Program-made: the position numbers and the translations under genes
Shown here: one piece after another, positions 2,740 to 34,604 of the stretch
How positions within the stretch are numbered: the first letter of the stretch is position 1
Layout: each line of letters begins with the position of its first letter
Notes under the pieces: model-generated
The model's database searches: none
Seen by the model: the letters and a program-made list of their open reading frames with translations, nothing else
What the model was told of the DNA's origin: nothing
Source: Clostridia bacterium
GTDB taxonomy: Bacteria > Bacillota > Clostridia > Christensenellales > Aristaeellaceae
Assembly (NCBI GenBank): GCA_017436605.1
Contig: JAFSCW010000086.1
Span: 1 to 45,699, forward strand
Length of the DNA: 45,699 bases
Direction of reading: 5' to 3'

Positions 2740-4491
2740 TTATCGGACGGCGGCCAGCGCTTCCATCACGCTGCACACCAGCTGCACGCGCTGAAACGGC
2801 GTCATGATATAAAAGCCGTCGACGAAGGGATCGATTCGCTTGGCTGCATCCCGGCAAAGCTGCACGGCCAGCCGCTCGCTCTGCGCGCGGTCAAGCCCGC
2901 GATAAGCCTCGATAATCCGTTCATCCAGCGTAATCCCCGCCACTTCGCTGTGCAGAAAGCGCGCATTCTTTTCGCTGACCACCGGAAACAGGCCGCCGAT
3001 CAGCCTGCCGGACAGTACGTCTCTTGCGCGTTCGAGGTTGCAGGCCGCCCGTTCGCTGAACACAGGCTGCGTGAGAAACGCTTCCATGCCGCATTCTTCC
3101 TTATCCTTTGCGCGCGCAAGCTCAACGTCGAAATTCACAGCGTTGATATTCAGCGCGCCGCACAGGAAAAACGGCTCTGTATCCCCGCTTTGGGACAGGC
3201 TGCGCACAAAGCGCGCCAGAACGCGCGAGTTGAACTGGAAAACGCCCTTGATGTTTTCGCGCTCGCTCGTCGGAACAGGATCTCCTGTCACGGCAAGAAC
3301 GTTGTGCACGCCTTCCATCGAAAGCCCAAGCAGCAGCGCCTTCGTCGCGTTGACGTTCCGGTCTCTGCAGGCCATATGCGGAAGCGCTTCGATGCCGAGC
3401 TCGCGCTTGATCTTGCAGGCCAGCAGACTGGAATCCATTCGGGCGCGTCCGATCGGGCAATCCGCAATCGTGATGGCGTCCGCGCCCGCATCGGCAAGCG
3501 CTCTTGCGCCGGAAAGAAACGACTCAATACCCGAATCTCTCGGCGGATCAAGCTCGACGAGCATCACGCGCTCGCCGCGGTCGAGCTTTTTGCGGATTCT
3601 GCTTCTGCATGCCTTCTCCGCTTCCTGTTCCTGCGTCCGGGCGGTATGCTGCACGGCCTTCGCCATGCGAAGCTGCGCAGCAAGCTTTCTGATATGTTCC
3701 GGCGTCGTGCCGCAGCATCCCCCGACAATCGCAGCGCCCTGCGCCGCGCAGAGCGCAACCTGCTGCGCATAATATACAGGATCGCTGTCGTAATAGGTTC
3801 TTCCTTCGACGACATGCGGATAGCCTGCATTCGGCATCGCCATCAGCAGCTTTGACATCGGCGGCATGCCCGCAAGAAGCCTGCGCATATGATAGGCGCC
3901 GCAGATGCAGTTCAGTCCCGCTGCGTCCACGTCGTCGCAGGCGTCCATCTGCGCGATCAACGCCGAGGCCGACTCGCCCAGGCGCGTAAACCCATCCGGA
4001 TCGGATGCGAAGGAAACGGCAACAAAAGCCTCCGGATCTCGCGCCTTGATCATCGCCGCAACCTCGGCAATGCCCTCGGCAGAAGGCAGCGTCTCAAAAA
4101 GGAAGTGCTTGACGCCCTCGTCCAGAAAGAGCGACGCCATCTGCATATATGCCTTTGCCGCATCCGCAGGCGCCGGTCCGATATCCGCAAAAACAAGGGC
4201 CCTTTCTCCCGCAGCGCAGGATGCAATCCGCACAGCAGCACGGACAACGCGCTCCTGCTCGCCGGCATCCGCGACAGCCAGACTGACATGCGCTGCAAAC
4301 GTATTGGTCTTAATCGCATCACAGCCCGCTGCAATATACGCCCGATGGAGCTCTTGAACCATTTCGGGAGCGGCGATGCACGCAAGCTCCACCGCGCCTT
4401 CCGGCCAATCGGGATTCGCTTTGGCATACGTTCCCGTCGCGCCGTCAAACAGCAATACGCCGCGTTCAAGCCTCTGTTTCAGGTTGACCAT
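2740..4491 (-). CDS. yitJ: Fused homocysteine S-methyltransferase / methylenetetrahydrofolate reductase
   Basis: The N-terminal half (about residues 1-290) is a zinc-dependent homocysteine methyltransferase barrel with the Cys-Cys zinc motif GGCCGTTPEH. The C-terminal half (about 300-583) is an FAD-dependent methylenetetrahydrofolate reductase barrel beginning VELDPPRDSG. The reductase would make 5-methyl-THF for the adjacent MetH; the methyltransferase may use another methyl donor. The length of 583 residues fits YitJ-type fusions. The ATG at 4491 follows GGAGGAACAAC. It is the last gene of the dprA-metH operon, 26 bases after metH, so it supplies the methyl-folate substrate in the same transcript. 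Confidence 0.93.
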   Translation of the reverse strand: MVNLKQRLERGVLLFDGATGTYAKANPDWPEGAVELACIAAPEMVQELHRAYIAAGCDAIKTNTFAAHVSLAVADAGEQERVVRAAVRIASCAAGERALVFADIGPAPADAAKAYMQMASLFLDEGVKHFLFETLPSAEGIAEVAAMIKARDPEAFVAVSFASDPDGFTRLGESASALIAQMDACDDVDAAGLNCICGAYHMRRLLAGMPPMSKLLMAMPNAGYPHVVEGRTYYDSDPVYYAQQVALCAAQGAAIVGGCCGTTPEHIRKLAAQLRMAKAVQHTARTQEQEAEKACRSRIRKKLDRGERVMLVELDPPRDSGIESFLSGARALADAGADAITIADCPIGRARMDSSLLACKIKRELGIEALPHMACRDRNVNATKALLLGLSMEGVHNVLAVTGDPVPTSERENIKGVFQFNSRVLARFVRSLSQSGDTEPFFLCGALNINAVNFDVELARAKDKEECGMEAFLTQPVFSERAACNLERARDVLSGRLIGGLFPVVSEKNARFLHSEVAGITLDERIIEAYRGLDRAQSERLAVQLCRDAAKRIDPFVDGFYIMTPFQRVQLVCSVMEALAAVR

Positions 4492-4517
4492 GTTGTTCCT
4501 CCGCTCTCAGCCAGCTT

Positions 4518-6872
4518 TCAGCCAAGAATCGCCTTGGCGATATCCGCAGCCTGCTTGGCGTCCTTAGCATAATAATCCGCACCAATCCTGCGGGCGTATT
4601 CTGCGGTCAGCACCGCGCCGCCGACAATTACCGGCGCAGAAAGACCTGACCCGCGCAGCGCTGCGATGGTCTTTTCCATATTCGGCACGGTCGTCGTCAT
4701 CAGCGCAGAAAGGCCGATCAGCTTCGCCCCGTGTTTTTCCGCCGCAGCGACCACCCGCTCCGCCGGCACATCGCGTCCAAGGTCGATTACATGAAAGCCA
4801 TAGTTTTCCAGTACAGTGCGAACGATATTCTTGCCGATATCATGGATATCGCCCTCGACTGTCGCCAGCAGAATCGGCCCTTTTCCTTCTCCCTTTGCGC
4901 CGGTTTTTTCAATCGCCCTGCGCACCTCATCAAACGCAGCGCCGGAAGCCGCCGCCGCGTTCATAAGCTGCGGCAGGAAAATCTGCTGCTTCTCATATCG
5001 CTCTCCGACCTCATCCAGCGCCGGAATCAGATGCTTCTCCACCAGATCCAGCGGCGTTTCGGTTTCCAGCATCTTCCCGGCAATCGCCGCCGCCTCCGCC
5101 TTCATGCCCTTTGAAATCGCCTCGGAAATCGTGACGTCCGCAGCATCCTTCTTATCGGCTTCTCTTTTTCCGTTCGTCTGGCTGGGGGCATGGCGTTCGA
5201 TATACGCAGCGCAGGAGGCATCCTCTCCGCTCAGCACGCGGCAGGCATCCACCGCATCCATCATTTCTCTTTGGTTCGGATTGATGATCGGCATCGTCAG
5301 TCCGCATGCGATCGCCTGCATGAGGAAAGCCTGCGTAACAAGCGTTCTGGCAGGAAGACCGAAGGAGATGTTCGACACGCCCAGCACTGTTTCAAGCCCA
5401 AGCTCATCGCGAACGCGCCGGAGCGCGTCAAGCGTTGCCGCCGCCTGCTCCTGCTGCGCAGAGACCGTCAGCGTCAGACAGTCAACCGCGACGTCGCCTC
5501 TCGGAATTCCATACTTTTCAGTTTCTGCAAGGATTTTCTGCGCCAGCTCAAAGCGCTCCTGCGAGGTCTTCGGAAGGCCGTTTTCACCCAGCGTCAGCGC
5601 AACGACCGCTGCGCCATACTTCCTGACAAGAGGCAGAACGCTGTCCAGGGACGCCTGAGTCGCATTCACGCTGTTGACAAGGCACTTGCCCGGCGCAGCG
5701 CGAAGACCGGCTTCAATCGCCGCAGGATTCGAGGAATCAATCTGCAGCGGCAGAGAAACTGCGCCGGATACAGCCGTGACCACGCGGCGCATCATCTCGG
5801 GCTCGTCGATCCCCGGAAGCCCCACATTGATATCCAGAATCTGTGCGCCCGCATCTTCCTGCTCAATGGCCTGCGATACGATGTAGTTCATATCATCTTC
5901 TCGCAGCGCCTGCTGAAAACGCTTCTTGCCCGTCGGGTTGATGCGCTCGCCAATGACGCGCACGCCCTTTCCAAACGCGCAGACCTCCCGCGCAGAGCAC
6001 ACGCCGGACAAACGCGCGCCTTCCCAGCGCGCCGCTTTTCCCTCCAGCGCATCGTGCAGCGCAGCGATAAAATCCGGCGTTGTTCCGCAGCATCCGCCGA
6101 TATACGCTGCGCCGAGATCCGTCATATCCGCACAGGCGGCGGCAAATTCCTGCGGGGTCGTGTTATACGCGCCGGTTGCCGGATCGGGCAGGCCGGCATT
6201 GGGCTTGAGAATCAGCGGAAGATCGGTCACGGCGCGCATATCACGCAGAATCGGCGCAATCTCTTTCGGCCCCAGCGAGCAGTTCACGCCTAACGCATCC
6301 ACACCCAGAGCGCTCAGAGAAATGGCCGCAGCGTCTGCTCGAACGCCGAGGAACGTCCTGCCCGATTGTTCGAAGGTCATCGAGGCGTATACGGGCAGAT
6401 CGCAGCATTCCTTTGCCGCCAGAATTCCCGCGCGGATCTCCGCAAGATCAGAAAACGTTTCAAAGAAGACAGCGTCTGCACCGGCCTTGACGCCGGCTCG
6501 GATCATCTGCGCAAAAAGGGCATACGCCTCCTCAAAGCTCAGCGTACCCAGCGGCTCAAGCAGTTCTCCGATCGGCCCGATGTCCAGCGCAACCCTCGCC
6601 TCCGTTCCGGCGCAGGCCTTTCTGGCCACGGAAACCGACGCGCTGATCACCTCGTCCACGCTGTAGCCCGTGCCGTCCAGCTTATGCGCATTGGCGCAGA
6701 ACGTATTGGCCAGCAAAAGCCTTGTACCCGCCTGAACATAGCGGCGCTGGATGCTCTCAACCACGTCCGGCGCTGTCATGGACAGCGTCTCCGGCCTGTC
6801 GCCGAGCTTCAGGCCTGCGCGCTGCAGCATCGTACCCATCGCGCCATCCAAAAGCGTGATTCTCTGTTCCAT
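4518..6872 (-). CDS. metH: Cobalamin-dependent methionine synthase lacking the reactivation domain
   Basis: MetH transfers the methyl group of 5-methyl-THF through cobalamin to homocysteine. In order it has a homocysteine-binding barrel (GVNCS and the zinc motif GGCCGTTPDF, about residues 1-290), a pterin-binding barrel (GERINPTGKK, about 305-560), a helical cap, and a B12-binding Rossmann domain with the lower-ligand motif GDIHDIGKN (about residue 660). It stops there, without the AdoMet reactivation domain of the 1200-residue enterobacterial enzyme. That domain is encoded by the preceding gene, whose stop lies four bases before this ATG. I chose ATG 6870-6872 because GAGGG sits seven bases upstream; an ATG 15 bases earlier is possible. 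Confidence 0.95.
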   Translation of the reverse strand: MEQRITLLDGAMGTMLQRAGLKLGDRPETLSMTAPDVVESIQRRYVQAGTRLLLANTFCANAHKLDGTGYSVDEVISASVSVARKACAGTEARVALDIGPIGELLEPLGTLSFEEAYALFAQMIRAGVKAGADAVFFETFSDLAEIRAGILAAKECCDLPVYASMTFEQSGRTFLGVRADAAAISLSALGVDALGVNCSLGPKEIAPILRDMRAVTDLPLILKPNAGLPDPATGAYNTTPQEFAAACADMTDLGAAYIGGCCGTTPDFIAALHDALEGKAARWEGARLSGVCSAREVCAFGKGVRVIGERINPTGKKRFQQALREDDMNYIVSQAIEQEDAGAQILDINVGLPGIDEPEMMRRVVTAVSGAVSLPLQIDSSNPAAIEAGLRAAPGKCLVNSVNATQASLDSVLPLVRKYGAAVVALTLGENGLPKTSQERFELAQKILAETEKYGIPRGDVAVDCLTLTVSAQQEQAAATLDALRRVRDELGLETVLGVSNISFGLPARTLVTQAFLMQAIACGLTMPIINPNQREMMDAVDACRVLSGEDASCAAYIERHAPSQTNGKREADKKDAADVTISEAISKGMKAEAAAIAGKMLETETPLDLVEKHLIPALDEVGERYEKQQIFLPQLMNAAAASGAAFDEVRRAIEKTGAKGEGKGPILLATVEGDIHDIGKNIVRTVLENYGFHVIDLGRDVPAERVVAAAEKHGAKLIGLSALMTTTVPNMEKTIAALRGSGLSAPVIVGGAVLTAEYARRIGADYYAKDAKQAADIAKAILG

Positions 6873-6876
6873 CCGA

Positions 6877-7536
6877 TTATCCCTCATTTCTTCTCATCGC
6901 GCAGGTATCTTTTGCGCTGCATCCCTCGCAGCCCGAAGGCCTTCTCTGAACAGGCGCATCGCTGATTCCCATGATGGCCGTAACCGATTTTCTCGGGATC
7001 ATGATGCCGCTCTGCGATACCATGAGGCCAATCCGCTGCGCCTGCAGCACGGCGCAGATTTCGTTCGTCTGGGCAAGCGGCATATCGCCATAGCCCGGAC
7101 TGAAGCGATCCGTCAGGTGTTTTCCCTCTTCGAGAAGCGACAGGCGAAGCCGCTCCTCCTGCCTGTCGCAAACGGTTTCAATCGCCGCACTCATAACCGC
7201 ATCGAGCAAAACCGCACCGGCTGCCCCAAGGCTCTGTTCCCGCAGCAGCATCCTTTCGCTCTGCGCGCCCAGCGTAGCTGCCAGCAAATAAACCTCCCTG
7301 CACGGCGCAAGCATTCTGCGCACATCCTCTCCCTTGGGAGAAAACGTCGTCCCGCAGAGCGTTCCGTTTTCTTCCAGCGAAAACCGCCTGACAAGCACGC
7401 GCGGCTCAGTTTCCTCGATCACCCTTCGCGCTTTTTCCCGGATATCTTCAAGCAGGCCATGCTCCACAGGCGTTCCCCGCCAGCCCAGAAAATGCAGCGC
7501 CTCGCGCAGCGGTATTTCATTCAGTCTGACGATCAT
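6877..7536 (-). CDS. Stand-alone MetH reactivation (AdoMet-binding) domain protein
   Basis: When MetH cobalamin is oxidised to cob(II)alamin it must be reductively remethylated with AdoMet. This 219-residue protein looks like that domain made separately. It carries the motif RFSPGYGDMPL and, near the C-terminus, RKSVTAIMGI, followed by a Cys-rich tail (CEGCSAKDTC). The methionine synthase next to it lacks the domain, so the two should work as a pair. The ATG at 7534-7536 follows AGGAGGG. The dprA gene ends 16 bases upstream and metH starts four bases downstream. The four tail cysteines could bind a metal, which is not typical of the fused domain and is my inference. Confidence 0.88.
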   Translation of the reverse strand: MIVRLNEIPLREALHFLGWRGTPVEHGLLEDIREKARRVIEETEPRVLVRRFSLEENGTLCGTTFSPKGEDVRRMLAPCREVYLLAATLGAQSERMLLREQSLGAAGAVLLDAVMSAAIETVCDRQEERLRLSLLEEGKHLTDRFSPGYGDMPLAQTNEICAVLQAQRIGLMVSQSGIMIPRKSVTAIMGISDAPVQRRPSGCEGCSAKDTCAMRRNEG

Positions 7537-13302: not shown

Positions 13303-13875
13303 TTATTTTATCTGATATGCTTTCAGATCGTCGGGCGTATTCAGGTTTTCAAACACACAGCAGTTCAGATGCTCCGGCAGCTTCAGCTTTTTCATGCGCA
13401 TATCCTCAAGCATCCACATAATCTTCAGTCTGTTCGTTTTCAGATGCGCCTCCAGCACGGGCAGACAGCTCCTCGCATATATGCCGCTGAGCGGCTGCGC
13501 CCTGCCTTCGTCATCCATCAAAACCACCGCATCCAGCTCCGGTTCATACTGCGCCGCAAGGTATTCCGCCAGATCGCGGCTGTAATACGGCGCATCGCAT
13601 GGCGCAACAACCAGCGCGTCGCAGTCCGTCATGGCAAGCGCCGCATGGATACCCGCCATGGGCCCGCAGCCAGGGTACACGTCCTCGCAGCGGACAAAGC
13701 CTTCCGGCGTCGGAATCGCCGGATCATTTGCAGAAAGAATACGCTCGGCAAAGCCTTCGCCCGCTCTTGCCACGGTATCCAGCAAACGCTCGCCGTCCAC
13801 CTGAATCAAAGCCTTATGGCTGCCCATTCGCTTTGATTTTCCGCCGCTGAGCAGCAGGAATCCAATTTTTGCCAT
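13303..13875 (-). CDS. mobA: Molybdenum cofactor guanylyltransferase
   Basis: MobA transfers GMP from GTP to Mo-molybdopterin to make molybdopterin guanine dinucleotide, the cofactor of the DMSO-reductase family. The nucleotide-binding start LLLSGGKSKRMGSHKAL (residues 7-23) fits the family GGxSxRMG-x-K motif. GPMAGIHAAL (about residue 71) and the magnesium-site segment VAPCDAP (about 90) follow, and NTPDDL closes the 190-residue protein. The ATG at 13875 follows GAGGAG, and the polyferredoxin stop is 12 bases upstream. Placement beside a molybdoenzyme operon supports dedicated supply of its cofactor. Confidence 0.93.
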   Translation of the reverse strand: MAKIGFLLLSGGKSKRMGSHKALIQVDGERLLDTVARAGEGFAERILSANDPAIPTPEGFVRCEDVYPGCGPMAGIHAALAMTDCDALVVAPCDAPYYSRDLAEYLAAQYEPELDAVVLMDDEGRAQPLSGIYARSCLPVLEAHLKTNRLKIMWMLEDMRMKKLKLPEHLNCCVFENLNTPDDLKAYQIK

Positions 13876-13887
13876 GCTGTTCTCTCC

Positions 13888-14928
13888 TCATTTTTTCTTC
13901 TTCTGTCTACATGCAATGCACAGCGTTTCCTGCCCGGACGGCGAAATCGCCCTGCCGCAGCCCGCGCAGGAACGGGACGCCACCCGCGACAGCACGAGAC
14001 GATTCATATGCGGCAGGTTCATCATGCCGATTTCCTCGATACAGCCGTCCCGGCAGACCGCTTCGCACACGCCGCAGCCCGTGCATTTGTACGGCGTGAT
14101 ATAAACCGGGCGCTTCCCATCTTCTTCGCCGCCGATCTCCATCGCGCCGTTCGGGCACAGCAGCGCACAGATGCCGCAGCCAAAGCAGGCATCCGATATC
14201 CACGGAAGCGCCATCCGGCAGGAGAAATCCCGATTCTTCCGGGCAAGCTCATGCACGCGCGACGCCAGCAGGCGCCTGTAGATCATTGCATCCACAGCTT
14301 CGCCGACAAGATCATTCACGACAAGCGCCGTCGCCTTTTGGCCTCCATGCGCCATCGCGCGAAGAAACTCCCGACGGCTGACGCCCTCCTCCTGTTCCGC
14401 GGGAAGGTCATCAAAGCACGCCTGTACATGGGCGGCGTATGCATCCTCCCCCAGAAAGCATTTAAGCTGATAAAGCTGCTCTTCAAGCGTATCAAGGCAC
14501 TCCTCGTGCGGACATTCCCTGCACGGCTTCAGATTCAGAATCAGCCTGCCGCCGAGCGCAAGATACGCAAGAAATTCCCACGGAAGCAGCGCAAGGCATG
14601 CTTCTTCATGCCCCGCGCCGTTTCCGGCGCGCCCGCAGGAAAGCACAACCCTGCCCGTTTTCTCTGCCATCATCAGATGCCGCTTGGCATTGGACGGAGA
14701 GGGCGCGATGCACCGCGAAGGGCACGCCGTAACGCACAGACCGCAGTTCTGACATTCGTTCCACTTCGGCGGCGTCTTCTGCGTCCGGTCATATACGCCC
14801 CTTGGACAGATCTCCATGCAGGCGCTGCAGGTCATGTGCTTCTGCTTGCGGTTGATGCAATGAGAAAGGGACAGAAACGGATGGTCATCCACCGCATTGG
14901 TTCTGATCACATCCATAAGGAATCCCAT
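13888..14928 (-). CDS. Multi-cluster 4Fe-4S polyferredoxin with an internal twin-arginine-like motif
   Basis: This 346-residue protein should shuttle electrons through several iron-sulfur clusters. Two ferredoxin motifs sit at residues 34-42 (CSACMEICP) and 59-70 (CQNCGLCVTACP). A Cys-rich middle part (C98, C111, C136, C139, C144) follows, then two more motifs near 260-295 (CFGCGICALLCP and CTGCGVCEAVC). The tail has two CxxC pairs (CAGC, CIAC) like a zinc ribbon. SRREFLRAM at 184-192 resembles a Tat motif but is internal, with no N-terminal signal. ATG 14928 fits the AGGAG spacing better than ATG 14934. It lies between dmsB and mobA, and is a candidate electron donor to the molybdoenzyme or an assembly factor. 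Confidence 0.8.
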   Translation of the reverse strand: MGFLMDVIRTNAVDDHPFLSLSHCINRKQKHMTCSACMEICPRGVYDRTQKTPPKWNECQNCGLCVTACPSRCIAPSPSNAKRHLMMAEKTGRVVLSCGRAGNGAGHEEACLALLPWEFLAYLALGGRLILNLKPCRECPHEECLDTLEEQLYQLKCFLGEDAYAAHVQACFDDLPAEQEEGVSRREFLRAMAHGGQKATALVVNDLVGEAVDAMIYRRLLASRVHELARKNRDFSCRMALPWISDACFGCGICALLCPNGAMEIGGEEDGKRPVYITPYKCTGCGVCEAVCRDGCIEEIGMMNLPHMNRLVLSRVASRSCAGCGRAISPSGQETLCIACRQKKKK

Positions 14929-15037: not shown

Positions 15038-15625
15038 TCAGGTGTTCTTCTCTTCAAAGTCCGCGCTGAATGCGCACTGACGCGGCTTGATGAGAATATT
15101 CGGCACGGTCGCGTTACCCGCAAAGCAGTGCAGCGCGGTGACGAGGTTCGGGCCGTACTTCGCATTGAGCTCATCCACCGGGCCGAACTTGAGCGCGCGC
15201 ATCATGCAACTGGACACGCAAGCCGGCTCGCCGCCGGCAGCCACGATATCCTTGCACATGTCGCACTTGACGACCTTCTTTTCCTCGGCCTTGTAGACCG
15301 GATGATGATACGGGCAGGCCTCCACGCAACGCAGGCACGCTTCGCCCGCGCAGACCGCATTGGGATCATGATAGACCACGCCGGTCTCGGGATCCTTCAC
15401 GGTACGGCCCGTCGGGCACGCCTTCACGCATGCCGGATAATTGCAGTGACCACAGGTCTCCGCCATGTGATAGATGCCCACATCCGGGAATTCGCCGGTC
15501 TCATAGGTACGCACCTTGCGCAGAAGCTCACCGATATCCAGGCGGTTCTTGTCCTTGCAGGCGATCTGACAGGTGTGGCAGCCAGCGCACACCGTCTGAT
15601 CAAAATAGAATCCATACTGTGCCAT
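15038..15625 (-). CDS. dmsB: DmsB-like four-cluster ferredoxin subunit
   Basis: DmsB-type subunits carry four [4Fe-4S] clusters that pass electrons to the molybdopterin subunit. The 195 residues contain the expected four Cys groups: CAGCHTCQIACK (about 14-25), CGHCNYPACVKACP (about 58-71), CAGEACLRCVEACP (about 92-105), and CDMCKDIVAAGGEPACVSSC (about 121-140). There is no signal peptide, so it would be exported by hitch-hiking on the Tat-signal subunit. The ATG follows TAAGGAGGC, 14 bases after dmsA. No DmsC or NrfD membrane anchor gene follows, so the route of electrons into the complex is not visible. Confidence 0.9.
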   Translation of the reverse strand: MAQYGFYFDQTVCAGCHTCQIACKDKNRLDIGELLRKVRTYETGEFPDVGIYHMAETCGHCNYPACVKACPTGRTVKDPETGVVYHDPNAVCAGEACLRCVEACPYHHPVYKAEEKKVVKCDMCKDIVAAGGEPACVSSCMMRALKFGPVDELNAKYGPNLVTALHCFAGNATVPNILIKPRQCAFSADFEEKNT

Positions 15626-15639
15626 TGCTTTCTGCCTCC

Positions 15640-18333
15640 TTACTCAAAGAGAATCGTCTGCGGGACGTCGCAGTCCGCCGGGATCGGCTCCTGCGTCCAC
15701 TTGCTGATCTGAACGTTCAGCGAGTTGTAGCCGTCGATGCCCAGACCGGTGGCAACACTGCCGGTGATGTAGTTTTCGGAACCGCTCTTGTCAATGCCGC
15801 TTTCCTCATCGACATTGACCCACGGGCCGTGCGGCAGGGCCACAACGCCCGGATACAGGCGCGCGGTCACGCAGGCATGGCGCAGGGTATCGCCGTACTG
15901 GGAGGAGACCTTCACGGTGTCGCCATCGACGATGCCGCGCTCGGCAGCGTCGTACTTGGAGACGAATACCGGGTTGGTGCAGGCTTCGCGCAGCCACGGG
16001 ATGTTATCAAAGACGGAATGCGCGCGGCGCTGATAGTGCGGGTTGAAGCACTGCAGCGGATACTCGCTCTTGGCTCCCTTGATATCGCCGTTCACGAAGG
16101 TGGCTTCGTAGCCCTGCGCGATCGGCTGATACTTCGGCAGACCATGATACTCCGCCTCGGAGAAGCCGTGACTGTTGATCATGTCGGCATAGGTCTGGCA
16201 GTAGAACTCGATCTTGCCGCTGTTGGTCGCGATCGGGTTGTTCTCCGGATCCTCGCGGAAAGCCTGCTTGTCGATGTAGCCCAGCTTATCGCCCGGCTTG
16301 CGGTCGACGCGGTACATGCCGTCTTCGAAGTACTTCTTGATGGAGATACGGCCCTCCTGCGGCTGGCCCTCGACGCCCCATTCCTTGATGTCGTCTTCGG
16401 TGATGGAGACGAGGTTTTCCCAGGTCTCGCCGTCTTCCTTGATGACGGTGGAGGTGGCGACGGAATTGAACAGCTGCTGGGTGGCGCTCATGGTGCCCCA
16501 CATATCAGCGCTCAGGCCGAGCTTCTCGCCGATCTTGATGCTCGCCTCGGTATCGGAGACGGACTCGAAGTACGGATCGAGCACCTGACGGTTGATGAGC
16601 AGGATGTCGCGGTTGTAGTAGCCGTCCCAGATGTACGCGCCCTCGCGCTCCCAGTTGGTGGAGATCGGCAGGACGATATCGCAGTACTTGTTGGTCGCCG
16701 TCAGGAAGTGGCCCTGGCCCACGACGAAGTCCATCGCGCGGAAGACCTCGATGCCGCGCTTCGCGCCCTCGCAGCAGGTCAGCTTCGCGGAAGCGCCATT
16801 CCAGATCATCTTGACCGGAGCGGTGATGTTCTCAATCTTCTTGGACAGGTCATAGCCTTCCATGCCGCCCTTCCAGCCAAGGCCGTAGCCGTTGATCATC
16901 GTCCACAGGGTAGTCGGGTTGAACGGCTTGCCCATGCAGGCGTCCCACAGCTGGGTCTCGGATACGCTGGTCGCAGCGCCGGTGCCGCCAGCGCCGCCGA
17001 CGTCGCCCGCGGAACCCACGCGGATCAGGCGCGGACCAAAGTTGTTGGTATGGTTCCAAGCAGTCGGGCCGGTGCAGTGGCCGCTCTTGCCGATGTGGCC
17101 GCCCATCGCGCCCAGGCAGATGGCCAGCTGCGGCAGCTGCTCGGTGTTATAGTTACGGGCGGAGGCCCAGCTGGACAGCAGCGCAACCTTGTTGTCCTTG
17201 CCCAGGACGCGCGCCACCTGACGCAGGGTTTCGGCCTTCACGCCGGTAATCTCCTCGGCCCATTCCGGGGTCTTGGCGACGCCGTCGTATTCGCCCTTGA
17301 GATAGCCGAAGAAGTTTTCGCTGGTCTTCGCATCCGCCGGCATATGCTCGCTGTCGAAGCCCACGCAGCAGCGGTTCAGGAAATCCCAGTCGATGAGACC
17401 CTTCTCAGCGTCCTCCTCGAGCATCACATACGCCATGGCGAGCATCGCAGCCATGTCCGTGCCCGGGCGGATCGGCACCCACTGCGCATCGAGAATGGAC
17501 GCGGTGTCGGTGTAGATCGGGTCAAAGAGGATGAACTTGGTGCCGGCGTCCTTCCATGCCTTGGCATAGTTGGTCGCATTGCCCAGAGAGGACCAGGCCG
17601 GGTTATAACCGAAGGCCACGACATATTCGCAGTTGAACATGTCCATGCGGTCGTTGTTGCAGTTGTAGTCATAGCAGGCGTCGCCCCAGCCGAGCACGCC
17701 CGGCGCAAACCAGCCGCCCCAGGAGCCCGTACGCCAGGCGCTGAGATAGTTGATGTTCATCTTGTTGAGCACATCGGTGCCCGCGCCGTTGCACAGGATG
17801 GCGTTGTCGCCGTAGGTTTCGTTCACGCGCTTGATCTCGTCAGCGATATACTGAGCGGCCTCATCCCAGGAGATGCGCTCCCACTCGTCGACGCCGCGCA
17901 GCTGACCGTTCGGATTGCCCGGGGTCCAGTTCTTGCGCTTCATCGGATACTTGAGGCGATCCAGGCCGCGCGCCTGATACTGCTGCGAGAAGCCGCGCAG
18001 GCAGGAACGCTGCTGGCGGTTATACTGGTCGTCGGTGTTGTAATCGTCGGTCTTCTGGCGAAGGATAACGCCGTCCTTCACATAGGCCTTCACCAGACAC
18101 TTGCCGCCGCAGTTATGCCAGCAGGGCGCCGCAACCCACTTGCCGCCATCCTCGGTGACGACAGGTTCAGCAGCTGCCGGGATGGTCTCTTCGCCGGCTG
18201 CCTTAAGGGTGCTGCTCTCGGCGATGGCGGTCGCATTCAGCGCGAAGCTGGCGGTACCGATGGCAGCAGCAGAACCCTTCAGGAAATTCCGGCGGCTGAC
18301 CATGGTATCGAGCACGTTTTGAATCAATGCCAT
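15640..18333 (-). CDS. dmsA: DMSO-reductase-family molybdopterin oxidoreductase with a Tat signal
   Basis: This 897-residue protein is a catalytic bis-MGD subunit that probably reduces an S- or N-oxide or a related acceptor outside the membrane. The Tat signal is SRRNFLKG (R14-R15) followed by an Ala-rich core. The FS0 [4Fe-4S] motif uses C71, C75, C79 and C111. IPIRPGTDMAAMLAMAYVM-like DmsA segments follow (here beginning VPIRPGTD). At the place where DmsA has its serine molybdenum ligand (GDYS) I read GDAC, with Cys220 as candidate ligand. ATG 18333 has AGAGGAAACAAC before it; an upstream ATG would add 16 unlikely residues. The true substrate is unknown and DMSO is only the family name. Confidence 0.88.
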   Translation of the reverse strand: MALIQNVLDTMVSRRNFLKGSAAAIGTASFALNATAIAESSTLKAAGEETIPAAAEPVVTEDGGKWVAAPCWHNCGGKCLVKAYVKDGVILRQKTDDYNTDDQYNRQQRSCLRGFSQQYQARGLDRLKYPMKRKNWTPGNPNGQLRGVDEWERISWDEAAQYIADEIKRVNETYGDNAILCNGAGTDVLNKMNINYLSAWRTGSWGGWFAPGVLGWGDACYDYNCNNDRMDMFNCEYVVAFGYNPAWSSLGNATNYAKAWKDAGTKFILFDPIYTDTASILDAQWVPIRPGTDMAAMLAMAYVMLEEDAEKGLIDWDFLNRCCVGFDSEHMPADAKTSENFFGYLKGEYDGVAKTPEWAEEITGVKAETLRQVARVLGKDNKVALLSSWASARNYNTEQLPQLAICLGAMGGHIGKSGHCTGPTAWNHTNNFGPRLIRVGSAGDVGGAGGTGAATSVSETQLWDACMGKPFNPTTLWTMINGYGLGWKGGMEGYDLSKKIENITAPVKMIWNGASAKLTCCEGAKRGIEVFRAMDFVVGQGHFLTATNKYCDIVLPISTNWEREGAYIWDGYYNRDILLINRQVLDPYFESVSDTEASIKIGEKLGLSADMWGTMSATQQLFNSVATSTVIKEDGETWENLVSITEDDIKEWGVEGQPQEGRISIKKYFEDGMYRVDRKPGDKLGYIDKQAFREDPENNPIATNSGKIEFYCQTYADMINSHGFSEAEYHGLPKYQPIAQGYEATFVNGDIKGAKSEYPLQCFNPHYQRRAHSVFDNIPWLREACTNPVFVSKYDAAERGIVDGDTVKVSSQYGDTLRHACVTARLYPGVVALPHGPWVNVDEESGIDKSGSENYITGSVATGLGIDGYNSLNVQISKWTQEPIPADCDVPQTILFE

Positions 18334-18438: not shown

Positions 18439-19107
18439 TCACTGTGCGGCCATCAGTTCGTCAATCACCCGCTGGTCATAGGCGATAAACTCCGCCATCG
18501 CGCGGACAAGCTGAGGATACAGCACCTTCGTTTCGGACTTGTCCATATCCTCGCAATACGCCCCCATCCAATTGAGAATATGATTTTTCTCAAAGAGCTT
18601 CTGGCCTTCCAGCAGGCTCTTATAGCCGCACAGAAGATTCTGCTCAAGACAATCCCCGGCGCGCTCCGTCGTCAGCGCGAGGAAATGCATCATCAGGCTG
18701 ATATGATCATCCGGATGGCTCGGATAGCCCGCAGGCACATAGCTGTACTGCTGATACCAGCTGCGCACCTGAAGGGTCGATTCCTGAAACAACGCGCGCT
18801 CCTTCGCCGTATAGCAGGATTCCCACGGCGGCGCAATCAGCGTATCCGGCCCGAGAAACAGCCGGGTATATTCCATCCTGGCCGCTTGAACATCCATACC
18901 GCGGCAGGAGGCAAGCACCGCCTTGAGGCCGGCTGCCGCGCGGCTGTCCTGCTCGAACAGCGCAACAGCCTGCAGGCTTTCCTCGCTGCTTACAGCATCC
19001 AAAAGCGCCTGCGTGGGCTCTCCGCCCAGCAGCTTATGGAACAGAGAAAACACATAGGCTCTGCCAGCCAGCAATGTGCTGACCACTTCTTTGATCTCGT
19101 TGTTCAC
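18439..19107 (-). CDS. torD: TorD/DmsD-family molybdoenzyme chaperone
   Basis: TorD-family chaperones bind the Tat signal of a molybdoenzyme and hold it open for cofactor insertion. The protein is all-helical and carries the diagnostic segment EYTRLFLGP (near residue 100) and PPWESCY, then YVPAGYPSHPDDHISLMMHF, matching the family's Y-x2-LF-x-GP and PDH signatures. Two starts compete. A GTG at 19107 has GAGGAG eight bases upstream, giving 222 residues. An ATG at 19149 has no ribosome site and would add 14 residues. I report the GTG form. It is the first gene after the cobalamin riboswitch terminator and lies just before dmsA. Confidence 0.88.
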   Translation of the reverse strand: MNNEIKEVVSTLLAGRAYVFSLFHKLLGGEPTQALLDAVSSEESLQAVALFEQDSRAAAGLKAVLASCRGMDVQAARMEYTRLFLGPDTLIAPPWESCYTAKERALFQESTLQVRSWYQQYSYVPAGYPSHPDDHISLMMHFLALTTERAGDCLEQNLLCGYKSLLEGQKLFEKNHILNWMGAYCEDMDKSETKVLYPQLVRAMAEFIAYDQRVIDELMAAQ

Positions 19108-19184
19108 CGCTAGATTCTCCTCAATGAATTCATCCGTATTTCTGGCCATCCGCGTTTTTCGCAAAACACACTGTTGTATTCTTA

Positions 19185-19224
19185 CAAAAACAAAGCGCAC
19201 CCCAACTCTCTTTCCGGGATGCGC
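19185..19224 (-). terminator. Terminator hairpin of the cobalamin riboswitch expression platform
   Basis: On the minus strand GCGCATCCC (19216-19224) pairs with GGGGTGCGC (19195-19203) apart from one T-G pair, followed by TTTGTTTTT (19186-19194). It lies between the aptamer and torD, as expected for transcriptional control. I did not work out the alternative antiterminator. Confidence 0.82.
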
Positions 19225-19298
19225 AGAAAGTCACCGATGTACATGTTCTTCGCTGATGATAAGGCTTCATTTCTCCATCGCCCGAGAAAAAGTCTCCG

Positions 19299-19479
19299 GT
19301 ATGCGGGGCAGGTCTCCTGACTGATTGACCGGGGAGATTCTCCCCTGCGGATACGCCTTCTCAAGCAAATTACCCAATGGCTTTCATATCCGCGACTCAA
19401 AACACAGTAATGGCTGTTGCGCCGGAATCAGACCGGCTTCCCTTTTCATCCTCAGTAACACTTCGGACACCCTGCATAC
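19299..19479 (-). ncRNA. Cobalamin (B12) riboswitch aptamer
   Basis: Read on the minus strand, this 181-base element closes with a P1 stem (19470-19479 with 19299-19308). It contains, in order, the core AAAAGGGAAGCCGGT, then GCAACAGCCATTACTGT, GAAAGCCATTGGG and GAGAAGGC. It ends with the B12 box AGTCAGGAGACCTGCC (19307-19322). These are the conserved blocks of the RF00174 class in the right order. A consensus promoter lies just upstream and a terminator just downstream, and the next gene is torD. B12 would normally switch such an operon off. Confidence 0.92.
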
Positions 19480-19500
19480 ATATTCATTTATGCTAACAAC

Positions 19501-19529
19501 ACTATATAAAAACCCTCATCTTCTGTCAA
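19501..19529 (-). promoter_or_regulatory. Promoter driving the riboswitch and torD-dmsAB
   Basis: On the minus strand a perfect TTGACA (19524-19529) and TATAGT (19501-19506) are 17 bases apart, about 22 bases before the aptamer. I see nothing else in 19530-19665. Confidence 0.85.
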
Positions 19530-22716: not shown

Positions 22717-23553
22717 TTATTTTCTGCGCATGGGCAGCGTAACGAAGTACACCGCCGCGCAGCACAGCACGACCGCCGCACCGGCAGAGGTGTTCAGATA
22801 ATAGGAAAGGACAAGACCCGCCACGCCGCACACCACAGAGATGATCACGGACAGGCGCATATACTGGCTGGCGCCTCTTGCGACATTGTGCGAGGCCGCC
22901 GCCGGGAGAATCAGCAGGGAGTTGATCAGCATGACGCCGACCCAGCGAATGGAAACCATGACGGCCACCGCAACCAGAATCGTAAACGCATACTCCGTCA
23001 TTCTCGAGCGGATGCCGCGGCTGCGCGCCAGCGGCGAATTGACGCTGGTGATCATCAGCGGATTGAACAAAAATACCCAGACGGCGCACGCAGCGGCCAG
23101 CGCGAGCAGGAGCGCGAGCAGATCCCCCTGCGTCACAGACAGCACATCGCCGACCAGCACGGAGGAATACTTGGCAAACGCACCGCCGCGGGAGAGCACA
23201 ACCAGGCCAAGCGCAATCGACGTGGACGAAAAGACGCTGATGATCGTATCTGCGCTCATTTTGGAATGATGCTTGACAAAGGTGATCAGGATCGCCCAGA
23301 TCACGCCGAAGACGAGCATCGACGCCATCTGATTCTCCCAGCCGAGCACGACGCCGATGGCGATGCCCGTCAGGGCGCTGTGTCCGAGCGCATCGGAAAA
23401 AAAGGCCATTTTGTTATCGACCGCCATCGTGCCCAGAAGACCGAACAGCGGCGTGATCAGCAGCATGGCCAGCAGCGCGTTTTTCATGAAGGTATAGCGC
23501 AGCCACTCAAAGGGCAGGAGCATGTCCATCGCCGCATAAAGCGTTTCCATCAT
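22717..23553 (-). CDS. znuB: Zinc (or manganese) ABC importer, membrane permease
   Basis: This is the permease of an ABC-3-type metal importer. The 278 residues form about eight hydrophobic helices, with the conserved early segment ALLGTMAVDNKMAFFSDALG-like (here FGLLGTMAVDNKMAFFSDAL) and WVGVMLINSLLILPAAAS near residue 205. The start at 23553 follows GGAGGG and overlaps the ATPase gene by four bases. It is the last gene of the znuACB operon. Manganese transport is possible for the family, but the His-rich binding protein favours zinc. Confidence 0.92.
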   Translation of the reverse strand: MMETLYAAMDMLLPFEWLRYTFMKNALLAMLLITPLFGLLGTMAVDNKMAFFSDALGHSALTGIAIGVVLGWENQMASMLVFGVIWAILITFVKHHSKMSADTIISVFSSTSIALGLVVLSRGGAFAKYSSVLVGDVLSVTQGDLLALLLALAAACAVWVFLFNPLMITSVNSPLARSRGIRSRMTEYAFTILVAVAVMVSIRWVGVMLINSLLILPAAASHNVARGASQYMRLSVIISVVCGVAGLVLSYYLNTSAGAAVVLCCAAVYFVTLPMRRK

Positions 23554-24386
23554 GCGCGCCCTCCCTTCGTATAAAACACCTGCTCAAACTCAGGCGAATC
23601 AAACACGACCTCTGGCACGCCCTGCTTGACAACAGTACCCTGCATCAGCACGACGCGGTCCGCATAGCGCTCCACGACGCTCAGATCATGCGAAACAAGC
23701 AGAATCGCCATGTGGTTTTTGTGCTTGAGCTCGTCGACCGTCTGATAAAACGATTCCAGACCATTCTGATCGACGCCGGAAACCGGTTCATCGAGAATCA
23801 GCAGATCCGGCTGGGGCGTCAGCGCCAGCGCCAGCAGAACGCGCTGCAGTTCGCCGCCGGAAAGGGCGCCCATCGCGCGATCGCAGAGCGCCTCGCAATG
23901 CGTGCGCGCAAGGGCTGTCATCACCCTGGCGCGCGTCTTTCTGGATACCCCGAGGAACACAGGACGGCGGGACAGCGCGCCCGCCATAAAGTCCATCACC
24001 GTTACAGGCGAGGATCTGTCGAACTCCAGCTGCTGGGGCACGTAGCCCGTGCGCAGGTCGGCAGCCGGTCTTCCGTCGCTGCTCAGATGCCGGATCGTGC
24101 CTTTATAGTCAATCTGACCGAGCAGCGCGCGCAGGAGCGTCGTCTTTCCCGCGCCGTTGGTGCCGATGAGCGCCGTCAGCTCTCCGCAGTGAATATGCAG
24201 GCTGACGTCCTTGAGCGGCACCTGGCGGCCGAAAGCAACCGTCAACTTGTCGACCTCGATTCGGCAAAGCTTGCAGCCCGCATCCGGACCGGAAAGCGGC
24301 GGATGCGCGCATGCCCGATGCTGCGTATCGCCGCTGCCCTCCGGCGCGTACTGGCTCTTGCGCAGCGGCTTGATCTTCTCCATCAT
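23550..24386 (-). CDS. znuC: Zinc ABC importer ATPase with a Cys/His N-terminal extension
   Basis: The ATPase subunit has Walker A GTNGAGKTT near residue 76, Q-loop YVPQQLEFD, signature ALSGGELQR near 175, Walker B LLILDEPVSG and the switch histidine in LVSHDLS. Before the ATPase fold (starting IEVDKLTVAFG at about residue 43) there is a 42-residue extension with H23, C26, H28, C38 and C41, which could bind zinc and gate transport; that is inference. The ATG overlaps the znuA stop by three bases, and a second ATG follows immediately. Confidence 0.92.
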   Translation of the reverse strand: MMEKIKPLRKSQYAPEGSGDTQHRACAHPPLSGPDAGCKLCRIEVDKLTVAFGRQVPLKDVSLHIHCGELTALIGTNGAGKTTLLRALLGQIDYKGTIRHLSSDGRPAADLRTGYVPQQLEFDRSSPVTVMDFMAGALSRRPVFLGVSRKTRARVMTALARTHCEALCDRAMGALSGGELQRVLLALALTPQPDLLILDEPVSGVDQNGLESFYQTVDELKHKNHMAILLVSHDLSVVERYADRVVLMQGTVVKQGVPEVVFDSPEFEQVFYTKGGRA

Positions 24387-25288
24387 TGCTCCAATGCCCC
24401 CACAAGCACGCGGGCATTTTCCCGCATGATCTGTTCATAGCTGTCCATCGCGCCGTCGCCGGATACGACGGGATTGAGCGAATACACCTTCGCGCCCGTC
24501 TCCCGCGCGATCGTATCGGCGGATTTGGTCGGATACTGCGGCTCCACAAACAGCGCCCTGATGCCATTTTCCGCGACGAGATCGCACATCTTCGCAATAT
24601 CCCGCGTACTCGGTTCCTCGCCGTCGTCCGAGGAAATCACGCCGGCAACCTCGATGCCGTATGCTGCGGCAAAATACGAAAAGGCTTCATGGAAGGTAAC
24701 GATCTTCTCTCCCTCAAGGCCCGCAAGCATCGCAGAAAGCTCTTCATCCAGCGCTTTGATCTTTGCGATATACGCGGCGGCATTCTCACGGTAAGCGGAC
24801 GCATGCGTGGAATCCGCCGCAGCAAGTCCCTCGGCGATGTTTTCGATCTGGCGGATCGCAAGCTCAGGATCGAGCCAGACATGCGCGTTGAGCATTTCGT
24901 CGTGATGCGCGTGCTCTTCGTGTCCGTGATCATGTTCGCCGCCGCACAGCATCTCAATTCCGGAAGACGCATCGATCACAGGAAGATCATCGCGCAGGGA
25001 AATGACCTTGTCCATGAACTGTTCCATGCCGCCGCCATTGATCACCAGCGCATCCGCATCCTCCAGCGCCACCATATCGCGGGTCTGCAGCTGATAATCG
25101 TGCAGACAACCGACGCTCTGGTCCGCCATGTTGGAAACCGTCACACCGGGAATTCCCGAAGCAACGTTCATCGCAAAGACATACATCGGATAAAACGACG
25201 TCAAGATGCTCACATTCTCCTGCGCGCCGGCGCAGCCGCACATGAGCGTCGCGGCGAGAAGCAGCAGCGCTGCCATGCGTTTTTTCAT
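24383..25288 (-). CDS. znuA: Zinc-binding lipoprotein of the ABC importer
   Basis: ZnuA captures Zn2+ outside the membrane and delivers it to ZnuBC. The signal peptide ends in the lipobox LMCGC (Cys19), so it is membrane-anchored. Metal ligand candidates are histidines in CLHDYQ (about 63), NAHVWLDP (about 134) and TFHEAF (about 200), and an acidic residue in VEPQYP. A His/Asp/Glu-rich loop (EHDHGHEEHAHHDE, about 118-131) is characteristic of zinc-specific members. It heads a three-gene operon with four-base overlaps. The promoter is weak: TATACA at 25330-25335 with no good -35 box. I found no clear Zur site. Confidence 0.93.
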   Translation of the reverse strand: MKKRMAALLLLAATLMCGCAGAQENVSILTSFYPMYVFAMNVASGIPGVTVSNMADQSVGCLHDYQLQTRDMVALEDADALVINGGGMEQFMDKVISLRDDLPVIDASSGIEMLCGGEHDHGHEEHAHHDEMLNAHVWLDPELAIRQIENIAEGLAAADSTHASAYRENAAAYIAKIKALDEELSAMLAGLEGEKIVTFHEAFSYFAAAYGIEVAGVISSDDGEEPSTRDIAKMCDLVAENGIRALFVEPQYPTKSADTIARETGAKVYSLNPVVSGDGAMDSYEQIMRENARVLVGALEQ

Positions 25289-32771: not shown

Positions 32772-34556
32772 TTACTTGCCAGTCGCAGCGGACTCGCCCG
32801 CGATACGGCCGAAGACGACGGTATCGGTCAGCGCGTTGCCGCCCAGACGGTTGGTGCCGTGGATGCCACCGGTAACCTCGCCCGCAGCGTACAGGTTCTC
32901 GATGATCTCGCCGTTCTCATTGTAAACGCGGCACAGGGTATCGATGCGCACGCCGCCCATGGTGTGATGGACAGTCGGGACGCGGGCGCCGGCATAGAAC
33001 GGGCCGTTGTCGATCGGCTGGCCGAACAGGGTACGGCCGAACTGGTCAGCCTGGCCCTCGAGCTCGCCGCCGATGCAGTACTTGTTGTACTCGTCGATGG
33101 TGGCCACGAGGTTCGCAGCGTCAACGCCCATGAGCGCAGCCAGCTCCTCGAGGGTGTCGGCCTTGACAGCGCGGCCGGCCTCGACCAGCTGGTTCGCGGT
33201 CTCGCCAAAGTTGTTGAGCTCATCGCCGGTCGGATAGGTGTCGGAGTCCATGACGATCCACATGAGCGCGTCTTCCTGAGCGAACAGGTCGCGGGTCATG
33301 TCGTCACGGCGGCCGCCCTCATCGCCATAGCGCAGGCCGGACTTGTTGACGAAGATACGGGAATCAACGCCGTGCTCGATGTTGCCGGACAGGGAGCCGG
33401 TCTTCGGATCGCCCAGCGGGAGGAGCTGGATGTTGCCCATCTGCACAAAGTCAGCCTGCAGCGCCTGGAGCATCTTCACGCCGTCGCCGGTCGCGCCTTC
33501 GTGGTTGGTGGAGAGAACCTTCTCATCCAGCGTGCCCCAGATCGCGTCATACGCCATACGCAGGGAAACGTTCTTGGCGAAGCCGCCGGTCGCGACGACA
33601 ACGCTCTTCGCATTGATGGTGATGGTGTTGCCGGTTTCGCCGGTGGCGATGATGCCGCAGGCGGCGCCGGTGTCATCGGTCAGGATCTTCTCGGCCTTGG
33701 TGTTGAGCATCAGGTCGATCTTGTCGGTCTTGTCGATGTACTTGGTGTAGGTGTCAAAGAAACCGGTACCAGCGACCATCGCCGGCTTCCAGGCGCGCGG
33801 CCACAGACCGCCGGAAACGGTGAAGACAGCCTCTTCGCCGAGCCATTCCATGCCCAGCTCCTTGGTCCACTGAATGGCGTCGTAGGCATTCTCAACCAGC
33901 GTCATGACCAGCTCCGGATCGCCCTGCCAGTCGCCGCCGTTGAGGGTCTGCCAGTAGTGCCAGTACACGGAGTCGTTCTGCTTGACGGCGAACTCGCTGC
34001 GGTCTTCCACAGCATTGACAGCGCCGCCCGCCAGGATGGTGTTGCCGCCAACCTTGGGCATCTTTTCCACGACGATAACGGACGCGCCATTCTGCTCCGC
34101 GGAGATCGCAGCAGCCAGGCCCGCGCCGCCCGCGCCGATGACCACGACGTCGGCTTCGAGGGTCTCGTCAGCAGCCTTCTCGACGACAACTTCCTTCTTC
34201 TCCATCAGCGCAGTGGTGTCCACGCCGCCATTTTCCAGCGCGTTCTTGACCGCGGCGAAGATCGCATCGGAGGTCAGGGTCGCACCGGCGACGGAATCCA
34301 CATTGATGGAATTGAGTTCGACCATCTGCGCCGGGATCTTCTCGCACGGGAGTTCGCAGATGCCGGGAGTGTCCTTGCACTCGTCGACGGTAACGGCCTT
34401 GATGGAGCCGTCGTCCGCCAGGGTGACGGTCACGGTCACAGCACCGACACCGCCGATCTGGGAGTCAGCCGTTCCGGTATAGCTGGTATCAGCCATGGCC
34501 AGGACAGCGGTCATCATGAGCGCGAGCGCCAGGATGACAGAAAGAATCTTCTTCAT
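32772..34556 (-). CDS. Secreted FMN/FAD flavoprotein reductase of the fumarate/urocanate reductase family
   Basis: The 594-residue protein would reduce an extracellular acceptor of the fumarate, urocanate or acrylate type. A signal peptide (MKKILSVILALALMMTAVLAMA) is followed by an FMN-binding domain with the flavinylation motif DSVAGAT, where Thr93 is the likely covalent FMN site for ApbE. FAD-binding VVVIGAGGAGLAAA begins near residue 137. Reductase-family segments MPKVGGNT, GGRRDDMTRD and HHTMGGVRID follow. No heme motif (CxxCH) is present, so FMN replaces heme as electron entry. ATG 34556 follows AAGGAGG. It has a MerR-type promoter, and the MerR gene is immediately upstream. The acceptor is unknown. 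Confidence 0.9.
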   Translation of the reverse strand: MKKILSVILALALMMTAVLAMADTSYTGTADSQIGGVGAVTVTVTLADDGSIKAVTVDECKDTPGICELPCEKIPAQMVELNSINVDSVAGATLTSDAIFAAVKNALENGGVDTTALMEKKEVVVEKAADETLEADVVVIGAGGAGLAAAISAEQNGASVIVVEKMPKVGGNTILAGGAVNAVEDRSEFAVKQNDSVYWHYWQTLNGGDWQGDPELVMTLVENAYDAIQWTKELGMEWLGEEAVFTVSGGLWPRAWKPAMVAGTGFFDTYTKYIDKTDKIDLMLNTKAEKILTDDTGAACGIIATGETGNTITINAKSVVVATGGFAKNVSLRMAYDAIWGTLDEKVLSTNHEGATGDGVKMLQALQADFVQMGNIQLLPLGDPKTGSLSGNIEHGVDSRIFVNKSGLRYGDEGGRRDDMTRDLFAQEDALMWIVMDSDTYPTGDELNNFGETANQLVEAGRAVKADTLEELAALMGVDAANLVATIDEYNKYCIGGELEGQADQFGRTLFGQPIDNGPFYAGARVPTVHHTMGGVRIDTLCRVYNENGEIIENLYAAGEVTGGIHGTNRLGGNALTDTVVFGRIAGESAATGK

Positions 34557-34580
34557 TAGGTTCTTCCTCCTTCTCATATT

Positions 34581-34604
34581 TGATTGATAGTTAACTATCA
34601 ATCA
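34581..34604. repeat. Perfect 24-bp palindrome at the flavoprotein transcript start
   Basis: The half-site TGATTGATAGTT at 34581-34592 is mirrored exactly by AACTATCAATCA at 34593-34604, with no loop. It begins about three bases after the predicted start of the flavoprotein transcript and precedes the ribosome site. A loopless palindrome fits a dimeric repressor site better than an RNA stem. Confidence 0.8.

Follow-up and report, generated by a model that had tools for sequence, protein, structure and literature searches.

A cobalamin riboswitch in front of a DMSO-reductase-family operon in an uncultured Clostridia bacterium

Introduction

Cobalamin riboswitches placed before metE genes follow OFF logic, the B12-independent route being switched on when B12 is scarce. 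They belong to the RF00174 family (a metE example is found in PMC9600662), as does the element described here, which differs from them in its target, a molybdoenzyme operon with torD as the first gene, and for this operon the benefit in methionine is one that we infer. The corrinoid-uptake riboswitches of the same genus fall into the same clade, share the L5 sequence and carry an L13 hairpin whose loop contains GGGC, as here, but the ones examined are followed by Peripla_BP_2, FecCD, CbiK-like or ECF-type genes (the last, ECF/DUF4430-like, assigned by eye).

Among the enzymes, MtsZ/TorZ of Haemophilus influenzae and BisC are S-oxide reductases that depend on molybdenum and use free methionine sulfoxide as substrate, and the consulted part of PMC5122715 mentions no B12 riboswitch for them. 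Unlike these, the DmsA-like protein of the present locus is accompanied by a DmsB-like subunit and has retained a 4Fe-4S motif at its N-terminus. With DmsABC the locus shares DmsA- and DmsB-like subunits, a TorD/DmsD-type chaperone and a Tat signal; it departs from DmsABC in scores below the NCBIfam cut-offs, in the lack of dmsC and in additional genes for a ferredoxin-domain and a MobA-like protein.

The earlier note on this DNA knew of no DMSO-reductase-family operon under a B12 riboswitch, and the open-access literature, weak evidence as it is, agrees: no publication was found there linking a cobalamin riboswitch or B12 with DMSO reductase, dmsA, molybdopterin oxidoreductase or methionine sulfoxide, and PMC11494915, in the part consulted, does not connect a cobalamin riboswitch with a DMSO-reductase-type enzyme. 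Besides B12 synthesis, uptake and isozymes, the targets of B12 riboswitches would come to include a molybdoenzyme operon, and in gut bacteria the supplies of B12 and of methionine and the molybdenum enzymes would be tied together.

Organisation of the locus

The window, that is the whole stretch of DNA analysed (45,699 nucleotides), comes from the genome (G000, about 90% complete) of an uncultured member of the Clostridia with relatives among ruminant-gut species. On its minus strand the following elements stand in this order:

19501-19529, minus strand: sigma-70-type promoter TTGACA-17-TATAGT, 11 of 12 consensus positions
19290-19489, minus strand: cobalamin riboswitch aptamer (RF00174, cmscan) with B12 box AGUCAGGAGACCUGCC
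19186-19224, minus strand: intrinsic terminator with U-run, GCGCATCCC...GGGGTGCGC-TTTGTTTTTG, hairpin 19224-19195
18439-19107, minus strand: torD-like chaperone gene with GTG start (PF02613, E 1.8e-26)
15640-18333, minus strand: dmsA-like molybdopterin oxidoreductase gene (Molybdopterin and Molydop_binding domains, TAT signal, N-terminal 4Fe-4S motif)
15038-15625, minus strand: dmsB-like ferredoxin subunit gene (4Fe-4S match; four Cys clusters, counted from the sequence)
13888-14928, minus strand: gene for a protein with two 4Fe-4S ferredoxin regions, an operon member also in the relatives G016, G019 and G003
13303-13875, minus strand: mobA-like NTP transferase gene (PF12804), in the same position in G016, G019 and G003 (by eye)

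At the level of sequence it is confirmed that an RF00174 riboswitch stands in cis to a DMSO-reductase-family operon. The complete B12 aptamer claimed earlier was recovered by cmscan over model positions 1-189 of 189 with 87.8 bits (E 1.8e-20) against a gathering threshold of 31.5 bits, and it is the sole Rfam match at that threshold in the window. The consensus promoter and the terminator reported in a row with it were likewise found; the terminator has a folding energy of -18.7 kcal/mol (z -2.5 versus dinucleotide shuffles). On the torD strand, promoter-like sites 5' of torD comprise two before the aptamer (11/12 and 9/12) and one inside it (9/12), and a scan of 19108-19185 revealed none between aptamer and torD, where a separate promoter had been considered in the earlier note. 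This speaks against the operon being read mainly from another promoter. It could also be supposed that the aptamer no longer senses cobalamin, as its L5 loop region deviates from the Rfam consensus; the same L5 sequence, CAGCCATTACTGT, is however present in same-genus transporter riboswitches, and either form of lost control is very improbable.

The torD-like protein scores under the cut-offs of the TorD/DmsD models. Its start is most likely the GTG at 19107, where orthologues begin with ATG or GTG. The domain matches agree with the earlier assignment of torD as the first gene, followed by dmsA and dmsB. That description holds for these three genes and falls short in extent, the double-ferredoxin and mobA-like genes also belonging to the operon, of which the latter is likely the last gene. 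The molybdopterin domains of the DMSO reductase family are present in the DmsA-like protein (PF00384, E 1e-29; PF01568, E 8.5e-18), although neither it nor its partner reaches the NCBIfam cut-off (TIGR02166, DmsA-like, 439 bits against 777.7; TIGR02951, DmsB-like, 174.9 bits against 214.1). Serine as molybdenum ligand is expected of S- and N-oxide reductases. Ser204 of the DmsA-like protein aligns with a serine conserved across the compared relatives, in a column which we take to be that of the molybdenum ligand, and is a likely ligand itself; the alignment made with HMMER to 1eu1 is out of register at this place. The enzyme of the operon probably reduces sulfoxides.

Conservation in a second species

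In G016, a species of the same genus with a torD 83% identical, the same operon is preceded by promoter, aptamer (93.9 bits with RF00174) and terminator. The two torD riboswitches are 72.6% identical. The upstream neighbour differs, being an RNase P RNA in G016 and a phosphoglycolate-phosphatase-like gene in G000. Both hexamers of the promoter (TTGACA-17-TATAAT in G016) are kept and the spacer has diverged, while the terminator stem differs in sequence and retains its pairing through compensatory changes. In a comparison limited to these two sequences, 31 of the 51 aptamer pairs are unchanged and paired, four are changed on both sides (compensatory) and three on one side, and 13 are non-standard in at least one sequence. 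Conservation of the element beside torD in relatives is partial: it holds for G016 and fails in four other same-genus species and in G138, of another genus, all of which have the operon without the aptamer.

Proposed switching mechanism

Two further elements lie between the aptamer and the terminator or overlap with them:

19270-19289, minus strand: L13 hairpin UUUCUC-GGGCGAUG-GAGAAA, candidate partner of the aptamer loop L5, also in G016
19208-19292, minus strand: antiterminator, with an equivalent helix in G016

The 5' strand of the antiterminator, CUUUUUCUCGGG (19292-19281), overlaps the L13 stem and pairs with CCCGGAAAGAG (19218-19208), which is part of the 5' half and loop of the terminator. 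In minimum-free-energy predictions the L13-hairpin, antiterminator and terminator folds are mutually exclusive in both G000 and G016. When the platform is folded only up to the 3' strand of the terminator, the antiterminator is favoured over the fold with L13 forced (-22.1 versus -19.1 kcal/mol in G000, -26.0 versus -19.8 kcal/mol in G016), and when the whole platform is folded, terminator and L13 hairpin replace it in both species. The L13 hairpin alone is not stabler than shuffles (z -0.28).

The literature assigns the sensing of ligand state to the L5-L13 kissing loop (PMC9600662). In both torD riboswitches CCAUU of L5 can pair with GAUGG of L13, over 5 bp only and with one G-U. Several same-genus riboswitches with the torD-type L5 have no matching L13, and other L5 types of the genus match downstream loops, for example CTCGT with ACGAG. 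With corrinoid bound, L5 would dock on the L13 hairpin and the terminator would form because this hairpin uses up the antiterminator strand, leaving the torD-dms operon off; with corrinoid scarce, the antiterminator would form and torD-dmsA-dmsB-fer-mobA would be transcribed. As the same antiterminator/terminator design, the usual one for OFF switches, is predicted in both species, transcriptional OFF control by corrinoid is implied, and control by transcription termination is very probable; its anatomy is observed in the sequence, its switching read from predicted folds. The logic suggested earlier, that the enzyme is made when B12 is scarce, fits this predicted OFF design: with a B12-sensing switch before the operon, production of the enzyme is probably limited to times when B12 is exhausted.

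Distribution and origin of the arrangement

TorD or a close orthologue was found in 6 of the 29 genomes of the genus searched, G000 included. Four of them (G019, G003, G007 and G005, with G005 and G019 in broken contigs) have torD and dmsA but no riboswitch; immediately 5' of torD stands a promoter-like sequence, TTTAC followed by TATnAT. The DmsA of G019 is about 97% identical to that of G000 over 440 residues, yet its operon lacks the riboswitch and is preceded by a promoter of its own. Other features were seen at two of these loci: in G007 a Molybdenum/tungsten cofactor riboswitch (RF01055, 60.2 bits) at L047 6881-7012, minus strand, about 5 kb from torD, and in G005 an ORF with an FMN-binding-like start (L048 1754-3637, by eye) between torD and dmsA on the opposite strand.

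Among 79 loci of DmsA relatives from GTDB genomes, six of them from the seven dmsA-bearing genomes of the family, a B12-box regular expression detected an upstream riboswitch only in L060, which is the G016 genome. The 73 loci from more distant genomes gave no B12-box motif 5' of dmsA with this expression, which would miss diverged boxes, some loci also being too short to reach upstream of torD. A further match that looks genuine, in L082, is located some 6 kb downstream of its dmsA and precedes a thioesterase-like gene and an apparent ribonucleotide reductase (by eye). TorD is rare among the Clostridia sampled (8 of 391 genomes, G000 included); cobalamin riboswitches are present in six of the other seven, none beside torD.

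A tree was built of 52 riboswitches drawn from the genus, the family and the order. In it the two torD riboswitches group closest to one another, near those of G008 (L011, preceding a Peripla_BP_2 gene, and L131), within a clade of same-genus corrinoid-uptake riboswitches. The trees of torD and dmsAB disagree, with low support (54-69). It could be assumed that a rearrangement brought the riboswitch from a corrinoid-transport gene to its place before torD and that B12 control, though real, would be physiologically incidental. The sister position to transporter riboswitches agrees with this, as does the rarity of the element (dmsA in 7 of 308 family genomes, the riboswitch with only two of these seven dms operons). 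However, two species that differ otherwise have both retained the promoter hexamers, the aptamer, the L13 hairpin and the terminator, which suggests selection, and an incidental carry-over is improbable.

Possible function

The B12 and methionine background of G000 was searched for the PF02310 domain and NrdJ as B12 enzymes. Two genes adjoin each other:

4518-6887, minus strand: metH, the only PF02310 match in the genome
2740-4491, minus strand: homocysteine methyltransferase/methylenetetrahydrofolate reductase (MTHFR) fusion

MetE, NrdJ, MsrA and MsrB gave no match in this genome of about 90% completeness; with G000 among them, MsrA was found in none of nine and MsrB in none of eleven same-genus genomes tested, and G138 has both. 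As MetH is the sole B12-domain protein found and MetE, MsrA and MsrB were not found, a shortage of B12 would bear hardest on methionine. That the only recognised B12 enzyme makes methionine is a hint that the operon serves B12-free methionine salvage. The likeliest purpose is that under B12 shortage, with MetH idle, a sulfoxide reductase would be made and methionine would be regained from free methionine sulfoxide. The earlier note had proposed such recovery, and the background just described favours it; the riboswitch-free relatives likewise have no MsrA/MsrB and MetE, so this background is supportive and not decisive, and does not on its own account for the riboswitch. A molybdenum enzyme of the DMSO reductase family from H. 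influenzae prefers free methionine sulfoxide, according to the consulted part of PMC5122715, and with this precedent the DmsA-like enzyme is a candidate methionine sulfoxide reductase. Taken together, the reading in which the B12 riboswitch controls the operon and its sulfoxide reductase recovers methionine when MetH fails has about an even chance. More tentatively, a molybdenum-dependent operon for methionine-sulfoxide salvage, run by the B12 riboswitch, may stand in for MetH without B12 in bacteria that have neither MetE nor MsrA/MsrB.

The operon may also be B12-controlled for another purpose, with the enzyme as an anaerobic electron sink for DMSO, other S- or N-oxides or another substrate under B12 limitation. 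A Tat-exported DmsA-like enzyme with DmsB-like and ferredoxin-type partners is what respiratory systems have, but no gene for the membrane anchor dmsC is found in the operon, and, MetH being the sole B12-binding-domain enzyme found, no B12-dependent energy pathway is apparent that the enzyme could take the place of; this role is rather unlikely in comparison with methionine salvage.

Other genes of the window may be mentioned. About 6 kb separate the methionine synthesis genes (2740-6887, minus strand) from the end of the dms operon. A ZnuA-like binding protein (24383-25288, minus strand) and an ABC ATPase (23550-24386, minus strand) probably belong to a metal-uptake transporter (23550-25288, minus strand); the next ORF is at 22717-23553. 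A reductase-like flavoprotein with FMN-binding and FAD-binding parts is encoded at 32772-34601, minus strand.
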